Positions 33,435 through 36,259 of a stretch of DNA of 48,718 nucleotides are shown here, piece by piece (the first letter of the stretch is position 1; each line of letters starts with the position of its first letter). The DNA lies in assembly GCA_913020715.1 (NCBI GenBank), contig CAJVZH010000014.1:1-48718 (forward strand), written 5' to 3'. The position numbers were made by a program, and so were the translations under genes. This DNA is from an uncultured Gammaproteobacteria bacterium (GTDB lineage Bacteria > Pseudomonadota > Gammaproteobacteria > PS1 > Pseudothioglobaceae). Under the pieces are notes generated by a model. That model was not told where the DNA came from. It made no database searches and was given only the letters and a program-made list of their open reading frames with translations.

Positions 33435-33462
33435 TTTACTTTCTAAGAAACTACGTTATAAT
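33435..33462 (+). promoter_or_regulatory. metK promoter
   Basis: TATAAT (33457-33462) has a weak TTTACT -35 (33435-33440) 16 bases upstream. Transcription would start near 33469, which is exactly at the 5' end of the predicted SAM-II aptamer, supporting both calls. Confidence 0.6.
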
Positions 33463-33468
33463 TTCCTC

Positions 33469-33533
33469 ACACGCTGATTTGTCCCGATTGCTAGCGTTGT
33501 CACTTTAAGTGACTAAAACAAGCTAAAGTAGGC
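33469..33533 (+). promoter_or_regulatory. SAM-II (SAM-alpha) riboswitch aptamer in the metK leader
   Basis: P1 pairs ACGCT (33471-33475) with AGCGT (33493-33497). The loop between them carries GATTT (33476-33480) and CCGATTGC (33484-33491), both characteristic of SAM-II. The downstream strand has the conserved GCTAAA (33522-33527). GCT (33490-33492) can pair with AGC (33521-33523), and CC (33484-33485) with GG (33531-33532), which gives the H-type pseudoknot of this class. A 7-bp hairpin GTCACTT/AAGTGAC (33499-33513) is inserted in the linker that is short in the classic aptamer. SAM binding is expected to lower expression of metK. The match is by recalled consensus, not by a covariance search. 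Confidence 0.8.
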
Positions 33534-33547
33534 GTTTTCCTTACCCG

Positions 33548-33573
33548 AAACCCCACTTTTAAGGGTTTTTATA
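33548..33573 (+). terminator. Terminator-like hairpin in the metK leader
   Basis: AAACCC (33548-33553) pairs with GGGTTT (33563-33568), followed by T and an A/T-rich tail, between the SAM-II aptamer and the metK ribosome binding site (AAAGGA, about 33582). It could act as a transcription-attenuation platform; SAM-II elements usually act on translation. The stem is only 6 bp, so it may be weak. Confidence 0.45.
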
Positions 33574-33594
33574 TATTACAAAAGGAAAACAATC

Positions 33595-34728
33595 ATGATA
33601 TTTACTTCCGAATCCGTTTCAGCAGGTCACCCCGATAAGGTTTGTGACCAAATATCCGATGCCATTCTTGATGCAGCACTTACTCAAGATATCAATTCAC
33701 GCGTTGCCGTTGAGACTTTAGTTAAAGACAATCAAGTCGTGCTTGCGGGTGAAATCACCACGGGTGCCGACCTTGATTACGAGGCCATCGTTCGCAAGAC
33801 AATTGTAGAGATTGGTTACGACCAGGACGAATACGGCTTTAACGGCCATAATTGCTCTATCACGAATTTGCTCGGTGAACAATCGCAAGATATTGCTATG
33901 GGCGTTGATGAGTCAGGTGATCACGAGCAAGGTGCAGGCGACCAAGGTCTTATGTTTGGTTATGCCGATAACGCGACCGATGTATTGATGCCAGCGCCTA
34001 TTGTCTATGCTCATCGCCTAGTAGCGCGCCAAGCAGAATTGATGAAATCTGGCGCATTACCTTGGTTGCGTCCCGATGCCAAATCTCAGGTTTCTTGTAT
34101 TTACGAGGACAACCATGTTGTTGGTATTGATGCGGTCGTTTTATCCACCCAACACGATGAAAATATTTCGCTAGATGACTTACGCGAAGCAATATTTGAG
34201 GAAGTTATTAAACCCATTTTGCCAAGTGAATGGCTCAATAAAAACACTAAATATCACATCAATCCAACGGGTAATTTTGTTATTGGTGGCCCTGTAGGTG
34301 ATGCGGGCTTGACAGGCCGAAAAATTATCGTTGACACCTATGGCGGCATGGCTCGTCATGGCGGCGGCGCCTTCTCCGGTAAAGACCCTTCTAAGGTTGA
34401 TCGCAGTGCGGCTTATGCAACTCGCTACGTGGCAAAAAACATTGTCGCTGCAGGCTTAGCTGAAGTTTGTGAAATTCAGATATCTTACGCCATTGGCGTT
34501 GCAGAGCCAACCAGTATTAATATCAATACCTTTGGTACGGGCAAAGCAAGTAACCAAGAAATTGAACAATTAATCTCTGAGCACTTTGATCTTAGACCTA
34601 AAGGCTTGATTGCGATGTTAGACTTAAAACGACCTATCTACCAACAAACAGCAAGTTGTGGTCACTTTGGACGAACAGAGGATTCCATTAGCTGGGAAAA
34701 AACCGATAAAGCCCACCTGCTTGGCTAG
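33595..34728 (+). CDS. metK: S-adenosylmethionine synthetase MetK
   Basis: A 377-residue SAM synthetase that makes SAM from methionine and ATP. The start [20 protein letters not shown], the [11 protein letters not shown] phosphate-binding loop and [16 protein letters not shown] are all canonical, so the enzyme should be active. It is slightly shorter than E. coli MetK (384). The leader contains a SAM-II riboswitch match that would give product feedback. ahcY follows on the same strand after 145 bases with its own leader. Confidence 0.96.
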
Positions 34729-34760: not shown

Positions 34761-34842
34761 CCCGCCAAGGAGCGTTGCATTGGGAATTCCCATCAGGCTT
34801 GGCACAAAGATGGTAATACCGTCTTTTATCAACGACGCTCAT
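34761..34842 (+). promoter_or_regulatory. S-adenosylhomocysteine (SAH) riboswitch upstream of ahcY
   Basis: The leader begins CGCCAAGGAGCGTTGCA, the hallmark 5' motif. P1 pairs GCCAAG (34764-34769) with CTTGGC (34798-34803), and the inner hairpin is TGGGAATTCCCA (34781-34792). A variable hairpin AAAGA/TCTTT with GGT/ACC lies at 34806-34826. The long-range pairing joins GAGCG (34770-34774) with CGCTC (34836-34840) and GTTG (34774-34777) with CAAC (34830-34833). This is the expected SAH-riboswitch layout, which turns on ahcY when toxic SAH accumulates. Confidence 0.88.
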
Positions 34843-34873
34843 TTATTTTTCAAACTAGTAATAGGAAAAACAA

Positions 34874-36259
34874 ATGAGCAACACCACTCTAGACAATAAC
34901 GACTACAAAGTAGCCGACATGACTCTTGCCGACTACGGTCGCAAAGAAATTGAGTTAGCAGAGGCAGAAATGCCTGCATTAATGGCACTTCGTAATCGAT
35001 ATTCCAATGAAAAACCCCTTGCAGACGCTAGAATTTTAGGCTGCATTCACATGACTATTCAAACTGCGGTCCTAATGGAGACGTTGGTTGAGCTTGGTGC
35101 CGAAGTTCGCTGGTCATCTTGTAATATTTTCTCTACACAAGATCACGCAGCTGCAGCAATGGTTGCGTCAAATATTCCAACTTTTGCCTGGAAAGGTGAG
35201 ACCGAAGAAGAATTCTTGTGGTGTATCGAACAAACAATCCTTGAAAATGGTAAGCCTTGGAATGCCAATATGGTGCTCGACGATGGTGGTGATTTAACGC
35301 AAATGTTGCACGAAAAATACCCGGAAATGCTCAATGGTATTCACGGCATTAGTGAAGAAACAACAACAGGTGTACACCGCTTAATCGAAATGATTGCCGC
35401 TGGTGAACTTAAGGTACCAGCGATCAATGTCAATGATGCAGTAACAAAATCAAAAAATGACAACAAATACGGCTGCCGCCACTCTCTAAACGACGCCATT
35501 AAGCGCGGCACAGATATGCTAATGTCCGGCAAGAAAGCACTTGTTATCGGCTATGGCGATGTCGGTAAGGGCTCAGCGCAATCACTACGCCAAGAAGGCA
35601 TGATTGTGAAGATCAGTGAAATCGACCCAATTTGCGCGATGCAAGCTTGCATGGACGGCTTTGAAGTAGTCTCACCTTACAATAATGGCATCAACACCGG
35701 CACAACTGCGGGTATCAACACAGTCTTGCTTTCAACAACGGACTTGATTGTAACCACAACAGGCAATATCAATGTTTGTGACTCTGCCATGCTACAAACA
35801 CTAAAACCCGGCTCAGTAGTTTGTAATATTGGCCACTTTGACAATGAAATTGATACGCAATTCATGCGTGACAATTGGCAGTGGGACGAAGTCAAGCCGC
35901 AAGTTCATCGCGTCTTTAGATCAGGTGATAAAAATGATTATTTAATCCTTTTATCCGAAGGTCGTTTGGTTAATCTAGGCAATGCAACAGGCCATCCAAG
36001 CCGTATTATGGACGGCTCTTTTGCCAACCAAGTGTTGGCGCAAATGTACCTGTTTGAACAGAAATTTGCCGACCTTCCTGATGCTGAAAAAACAGCAAAA
36101 ATCACCGTTGAACTACTTCCTAAAAAACTCGATGAAGAGGTTGCGGCCGGTATGGTTGGTGGTTTTGGCGGTGTACTGACCATAATGACTGACAACCAGG
36201 CAAGCTACATCAACACACCAAAAGATGGTCCATTTAAGGCCGAAACTTACAAATATTAA
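34874..36259 (+). CDS. ahcY: Adenosylhomocysteinase AhcY
   Basis: A 461-residue SAH hydrolase, which splits S-adenosylhomocysteine into homocysteine and adenosine using bound NAD+. The motifs [29 protein letters not shown] (NAD-binding) and the C-terminal [10 protein letters not shown] are all present, so the enzyme is complete. The start follows AGGA at normal spacing. Together with metK it covers two steps of the activated methyl cycle, and the SAH riboswitch in its leader matches its job. A terminator follows. Confidence 0.97.

Follow-up and report, generated by a model that had tools for sequence, protein, structure and literature searches.

A candidate SAM riboswitch of the SAM-II/SAM-V superfamily with an inserted hairpin in the metK leader of a gammaproteobacterial family

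The metK leader and its scores against Rfam models

The window analyzed here (the whole stretch of 48,718 nucleotides of contig CAJVZH010000014.1, from an uncultured gammaproteobacterium; all features below lie on its forward strand unless stated otherwise) contains a complete metK frame at 33595–34728, encoding a SAM synthase of 377 aa with three S-AdoMet_synt Pfam domains that is 96% identical to that of the nearest relative, and, downstream, ahcY at 34874–36259, encoding a SAH hydrolase of 461 aa (Pfam AdoHcyase and AdoHcyase_NAD). Between the two genes, at 34761–34847, lies a SAH riboswitch (RF01057; 54.4 bits, cut-off 37), and this is the only element that current Rfam models (release 15, gathering thresholds) detect at the metK–ahcY locus. 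Does the metK leader contain a SAM sensor of its own and, if so, why is it missed? A preliminary description had placed a full SAM-II pattern at 33469–33533 and proposed a search with the RF00521 covariance model as the check.

The leader contains a SAM-II-type pseudoknot aptamer (33468–33540, with a 3' limit at about 33532) directly upstream of metK, starting 5 bases past the TATAAT of a sigma-70-like promoter. This promoter, TTTACT-16-TATAAT (33435–33462; 10 of 12 consensus matches, with TATAAT at 33457–33462 preceded by TTTACT), was the only one found by a promoter scan for which 0.4 were expected in shuffles; the -10 element previously noted just upstream of the aptamer was thus recovered along with its -35 partner, and TATAAT lies 3–17 nt upstream of the aptamer in all 74 parsed leaders (68 distinct). 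Stem P1 pairs 33471–33475 with 33493–33497 and closes loop L1 (33471–33497 with the stem; GAUUU and AUUGC), in which GATTT occupies 33476–33480 and CCGATTGC occupies 33484–33491. A hairpin of 15 nt, P3 (GUCACU-UUA-AGUGAC, 33499–33513), is inserted between P1 and the 3' pseudoknot strand GCUAAAG-UA-GG (33522–33532; GCTAAA at 33522–33527). This strand would supply the 3' side of both pseudoknot helices, P2 (33488–33491 with 33522–33526) and P2a (33484–33485 with 33531–33532). The motifs reported earlier (P1, GATTT, CCGATTGC and GCTAAA, in this order upstream of metK) are all in place; by way of correction, the aptamer extends to about 33532 and includes the hairpin at 33499–33513, which had gone unmentioned. 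Together with the SAH riboswitch, the leader would give one gene cluster separate SAM (SAM-II-like) and SAH sensors.

The proposed RF00521 search lists no match at the aptamer site at E-values up to 10 (gathering score 36 bits), so that this criterion alone would have rejected the aptamer; genome-wide, the model yields 14 weak matches, none over the cut-off and none at this site. At a permissive threshold, the sole SAM family listed at the site is RF01726, with 17.0 bits against a cut-off of 44 and a 16-nt insertion; it exceeds its cut-off in none of the 58 genomes searched, the window's own included. RF01826 (SAM-V, gathering score 41 bits) has no match at the site. Elsewhere in the same genome, a SAM_V match of 30.5 bits (G000:C7) is probably due to chance, its flanking frames lying on the other strand (L123). 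A SNORD46 match on the reverse strand of the scanned site, below its cut-off, was likewise taken as chance. Across 20 family loci, the window's included, gathering thresholds return the SAH riboswitch in 20 and a SAM riboswitch in none. The likely reason that the Rfam models miss the metK-leader aptamer is the conserved P3 inserted between P1 and the 3' pseudoknot strand; in this way, an inserted hairpin can keep a known riboswitch out of sight of Rfam throughout a family.

Recurrence and covariation in the family

For comparison, metK was collected from 58 genomes, the window's own included (53 with a match), and from a genome collection. We infer from named relatives (L039, L040, L042 and L057) that the host genome belongs to the SUP05/Thioglobus group; the named neighbors comprise a Bathymodiolus symbiont, Thioglobus metagenome-assembled genomes and a SUP05 genome. 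In 33 of the 35 family loci (L009–L042 and L057), comprising 32 distinct sequences, the P1/loop core is followed by a hairpin that varies in sequence and then by the GCUAAAG strand; the other two are L020, which is truncated, and L038, which is divergent. The 32 distinct sequences were aligned with MAFFT, not fitted to any model (alignment A1), and the covariance model R1 was trained on these relatives' sequences.

R1 finds one strong match each in 74 of 83 family genomes (weakest E = 6e-9), 42 of the 74 sequences being outside the training set, and scores the window aptamer at 92.4 bits. In 73 of the 74, metK lies downstream, and for the remaining one (L198) the contig ends first. Among the nine family genomes without a match, G004, G026 and G027 lack a metK match, G005 has a metK match of 59%, in G032 the contig ends at metK, and G036 is divergent, its metK leader (L038) sharing AUUGC and GCUAAAA with no clear P1 seen; the others are G077, G093 and G103. 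Conversely, G007 has an R1 match yet no metK match. A further 18 weak R1 matches in the family were considered as second copies; four were opened (L210–L213), of which three lie inside an open frame and the fourth at the border of two frames, and we therefore claim no second copy. A search of viral contigs for the exact family pattern returned none.

In the 74-row alignment fitted to the model, 95.9% of the cells are paired, and the covariation score of the whole structure (0.262 vs 0.156 in shuffles) is reached by none of 500 shuffles; 16 of the 500 attain the observed count of eight pairs with changes on both sides. With the unfitted A1, 0 of 500 shuffles reach the covariation score and 105 of 500 the both-sides count. 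In P3, all six pairs are changed on both sides, also in A1, and 90.7% of the cells are paired; in P1, 99.5% of the cells are paired and two of five pairs changed on both sides. RNAalifold applied to A1 recovers P1 and P3 unaided. In P2a, 94.6% of the cells are paired, with variation on one side only, and the P2 letters are compatible in 74 of 74 and never vary, so that covariation lends this helix no support; its pairing is predicted by analogy with known structures. AUUU, UUGC and GCUAAA are identical in all 74 sequences. Columns 14 and 19 (GG in 71, AA in 2 and AG in 1 of the 74) are taken to be the homopurine pair, G-G or A-A, that was predicted for SAM-II from covariation (PMC2258182), the placement being that of the present analysis. 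Because strong copies occur in 74 of 83 family genomes and show compensatory changes, the recurrence of the aptamer far exceeds chance. Comparison of the leaders thus establishes an aptamer that includes P3 and is very probably a SAM-sensing member of the SAM-II/SAM-V superfamily.

Leader parsing covered 81 loci, of which seven are off-pattern (L038, L190, L197, L200, L204, L208 and L209); all of these except L038 were kept in the 74-row alignment. From the 68 distinct leaders, L141 (which has an N) and L198 (cut off) were excluded, leaving 66 for the folding and pairing tests described below.

Expression platform, proposed mechanism and alternatives

Just after P2a, a putative anti-Shine-Dalgarno (anti-SD) sequence, GUUUUCCUU (33534–33542), is complementary at 9 of 9 positions to the Shine-Dalgarno (SD) region of metK, AAGGAAAAC (33582–33590), before the start of the gene. 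Across the 66 leaders, anti-SD:SD pairing has a mean energy of -10.4 kcal/mol when each anti-SD is tested with its own partner, -8.6 when partners are swapped between leaders and -4.8 when they are shuffled; none of 20,000 permutations, which ignore shared ancestry, reaches the own mean, and the own partner has a median rank of 16.5 among 66, as close relatives share sequences. Nested between anti-SD and SD is a terminator-like hairpin (33548–33568) that is weak in the window (-4.7 kcal/mol), with a broken U tail (UUAUAUAU), and is not called as a terminator by a stricter scan. In relatives, strong U-tailed hairpins occupy this position (-13.6 kcal/mol in L174 and -15.2 in L157), and such terminator-like hairpins occur in 56 of 66 leaders under loose criteria vs 93 of 264 dinucleotide shuffles, in 52 vs 43 at -3 kcal/mol or below, and in 39 vs 15 at -5 kcal/mol or below. 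The anti-SD:SD pairing and the terminator-like hairpins of the family are thus, like the aptamer, borne out by the comparison of leaders.

The GCUAAAG...GG strand is also able to pair with the 5' arm of the terminator-like hairpin. When the window leader is folded only as far as the hairpin loop, GCUAAAGnnGG pairs downstream with a mean probability of 0.67, and in folds stopped at this point the pairing probability exceeds 0.5 in 51 of the 56 leaders evaluated (neither value has a shuffled control); own partners show no significant advantage over swapped ones, since 1348 of 20,000 permutations are as good. At equilibrium, the SD of the full window leader stays closed whether the aptamer is present (unpaired 0.01) or absent (0.00), and the SD opens by more than 0.2 without SAM in only 11 of the 66 leaders. 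The OFF-state architecture is therefore well supported, and switching between the states is a model that would need co-transcriptional kinetics.

Six SUP05-like leaders (L025, L032, L147, L148, L152 and L202) lack the anti-SD at this position (-2.1 to -4.9 kcal/mol) and also lack the second P2a pair. In a SUP05-like subgroup (L025, L028, L029, L030 and L032, where L028, L029 and L030 are the same leaders as L148, L147 and L152, respectively), the aptamer is kept while neither the usual anti-SD nor a second P2a pair is present, and a CUUUAGC further downstream matches GCUAAAG at every base in four of five and at 6 of 7 bases in L030. Folding opens the SD of this subgroup by more than 0.2 without SAM in four of five, the exception being L148. 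These sequences suggest a lineage-specific change of expression platform.

The metK leader is probably an OFF switch that senses SAM, belongs to the SAM-II/SAM-V superfamily and has a terminator-in-anti-SD:SD platform. Transcription would start at the aptamer, and SAM would stabilize the P1/P2 pseudoknot, holding GCUAAAG(UA)GG in P2/P2a, with P3 probably forming, as in SAM-V, a peripheral strut that spans P1 and the A-rich segment. In the SAM-bound state, GUUUUCCUU would be free to pair with the SD region of metK, and the stretch between anti-SD and SD would fold into the terminator-like hairpin, so that transcription and/or initiation would fall. In the absence of SAM, the newly transcribed GCUAAAG...GG would pair with the 5' arm of the hairpin, forming an antiterminator that would also trap part of the anti-SD, and metK would be made. 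Within this scheme, SAM binding, the sign of regulation, P2 pairing and the antiterminator state are the parts that we infer.

A purely translational switch with the same SAM aptamer, in which SAM lets the anti-SD take the SD and the inner hairpin is a mere spacer, is a possibility that we hold to be on the doubtful side. Such control would draw on the best-supported part of the platform, the anti-SD:SD complementarity, and would accommodate the weakness of the window hairpin, its broken U tract and its absence from the stricter scan; however, the strong U-tailed hairpins of relatives such as L174 and L157, and their greater frequency than in shuffles, speak for a terminator, and most SAM-II riboswitches are reported to be transcriptional (PMC6061858).

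It is quite improbable that the leader, while of the same ancestry, has come to respond to a different ligand, such as SAH, or to SAM and SAH alike. The metK context alone leaves the ligand unfixed, and SAM/SAH riboswitches located before metK are described as discriminating only weakly (PMC2864571); against this, the gene downstream has a SAH riboswitch of its own, and the invariant uridines of the GAUUU and UUGC segments, with the UAA segment, include those that contact SAM in SAM-V. In the SAM-V structure, the contacts with SAM comprise a U of the segment matching GCUAAA for the adenine, a U:A.U triple opposite the sulfonium and an A for the amino-acid end (PMC6061858); as mapped in this analysis, the invariant U and A positions of the leader would match these contacts. 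A protein- or DNA-level site (an operator or the target of a leader-binding protein) instead of a riboswitch would suit the long invariant stretches but is hardly credible, as the P3 sequence changes freely with its pairs kept (6/6), the invariant letters are those of SAM-II, and no MetJ was found in any of the 31 family genomes searched (the E. coli control was positive).

The SAM-sensing OFF switch, if true, would close a gap in regulation for a lineage of marine sulfur oxidizers in which MetJ was not found (0/31 genomes).

Related elements and known SAM riboswitch classes

The occurrence of a SAM-II-type element on metK in a gammaproteobacterium, which had been put forward as notable, holds up as an observation, but gammaproteobacterial SAM-II is already in print (PMC2258182, PMC2704228), with Coxiella named in a SAM-II figure legend (PMC1273637), and so are SAM-II riboswitches for which terminators are predicted and tandem arrangements that mix platforms (PMC9373788, PMC9481103, PMC1273637). 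Because SAM-II in gammaproteobacteria is known, the novelty lies in the P3 variant; in the portions of the literature covered on SAM-II in SUP05, Thioglobus or Bathymodiolus or with P3, we recognized no description of this metK leader.

When 369 genomes of the class were searched, R1 matched 22 at E-values up to 0.1; four of these matches are strong, and all four are in the family. Of the 18 weak ones, RF00521 lists L158, L160, L161, L162 and L173, with L162 alone over the cut-off of 36 (36.4 bits) and L173 at 31.0 bits, and L165 resembles SAM-II by eye; P3 was seen by eye in none of these six. Downstream are metK (L160, L161 and L173), a Cys/Met PLP enzyme (L162), an ABC ATPase with a NIL domain (L158) and a homocysteine S-methyltransferase (L165). 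In the metK leaders of two further families of this class (L160 with L161, and L173), canonical SAM-II is supported by RF00521 at scores under the cut-off. At L160, L161 and L173, a SAH riboswitch also lies between metK and ahcY, there with canonical SAM-II. The weak matches L159, L163, L164 and L167 lie, by eye, in unrelated open frames. In SAR86 metK leaders (L054, L055 and L056), SAM-II/SAM-V-like GATTT...TTGC...GCTAA strings occur just upstream of metK (3001); Rfam at E-values up to 1 gives no match at L054 and L056, which look SAM-II-like by eye.

A search of 398 genomes of the phylum added one R1 match, L214, a P3-bearing element upstream of a gene for a metX-like alpha/beta hydrolase. 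The order of this genome is apparently a betaproteobacterial one, and in 250 of its genomes R1 has 12 matches: L215 likewise carries P3 and lies upstream of a Cys/Met PLP enzyme, L216, L217, L221 and L222 are RF00521-like without P3, and the other six look like chance.

In 200 genomes of the same order, 39 match RF02424 (Bp2_287, described as a Burkholderia sRNA). At 27 of the 30 opened loci, a SAM-II-like sequence overlaps the match on the opposite strand, and at the other three (L229, L236 and L242) the SAM-II-like pattern lies outside it, although in L229 an RF00521 match (29.1 bits) does overlap the RF02424 match. The opposite-strand arrangement was observed among loci L226–L255 and also at L173 (1456–1593). 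RF00521 lists 12 of the 20 loci scanned (L214 and L215 included) at E-values up to 1, five of them over the cut-off, and a P3-like hairpin is present in 7 of 32 parsed elements (L214, L215, L226, L233, L248, L252 and L254); the row of L231 (an AT case with a long loop) is a mis-parse, and this locus also has an ordinary short match. At the seven loci checked with Pfam, the downstream genes encode Cys/Met PLP enzymes (L215, L226 and L227), metX-like alpha/beta hydrolases (L214, L233 and L254) and MetK (L234); L238 also precedes metK. RF02424 looks like wrong-strand SAM-II. It has already been placed upstream of metX and metZ and called a likely cis element (PMC3521395), and a metXZ RNA element of betaproteobacteria, a pseudoknot with a terminator before metX or metZ, has been described (PMC4239095); the latter is probably SAM-II that Rfam scans of that time missed. 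L248 (1380–1451 and 1568–1623) and L255 (1531–1587 and 1628–1684) each hold two SAM-II-like sequences on the same strand, probably tandem SAM-II.

SAM-V has been described from marine alphaproteobacteria and Bacteroidetes (PMC6061858). SAM-V riboswitches were also observed in SUP05-like family genomes at L119 (1012–1079; 44.7 bits, over the cut-off of 41), L120 (987–1055; 36.8 bits, before a homocysteine S-methyltransferase), L121 and L122.

How, then, does the metK leader relate to the known classes? The earlier assignment to SAM-II stands for the core, which recurs in 74 of 83 family genomes, and not for the full pattern, as P3 is present and the gathering scores of RF00521 and RF01726 are not reached. 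With SAM-II (RF00521) the leader shares P1 closing a GAUUU...UUGC loop, the GCUAAA 3' strand, the homopurine position, a promoter directly upstream and a terminator-like platform with complementarity between its 5' arm and GCUAAAG; unlike SAM-II, it has P3, adds an anti-SD, is unlisted by the RF00521 model and has a P2a of only 2 bp, compared with 5 bp in 60% of SAM-II (PMC6061858). With the SAM-II long-loops model (RF01726; Bacteroidetes and marine, according to a table in PMC2864571) it has GAUUUG, GAUUGC and GCUAAAG in common, whereas that model has an extra stem inside the P1 loop and no P3 columns. Most metXZ/RF02424 elements differ from the leader in lacking P3, and some have a P3-like hairpin.

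The cores of SAM-II and SAM-V superpose, and P3 is described as a SAM-V feature absent from SAM-II (PMC6061858). Like SAM-V (RF01826), the leader has P1, P3, an A-rich segment and the 3' P2 strand in this order, a 2-bp P2a and, likely, a translational element; in contrast, the RF01826 consensus, as read by eye, differs from it in the sequences and lengths of P1 and P2, and the SD lies inside P2a in SAM-V (PMC6061858), whereas that of the leader starts 50 nt downstream of P2a. On these sequence features, the metK leader is best described as a SAM-II core with a SAM-V-type P3, a new variant and not a new class. We tentatively suggest that the family leaders could be intermediate between SAM-II and SAM-V, with one aptamer driving two nested platforms, an intrinsic terminator inside an SD:anti-SD helix. 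An intermediate between two separately named SAM riboswitch classes would make the role of P3 testable and, if true, would, together with the P3-bearing betaproteobacteria-like SAM-II, make P3 an optional, recurrent module and SAM-II and SAM-V the ends of one continuum.
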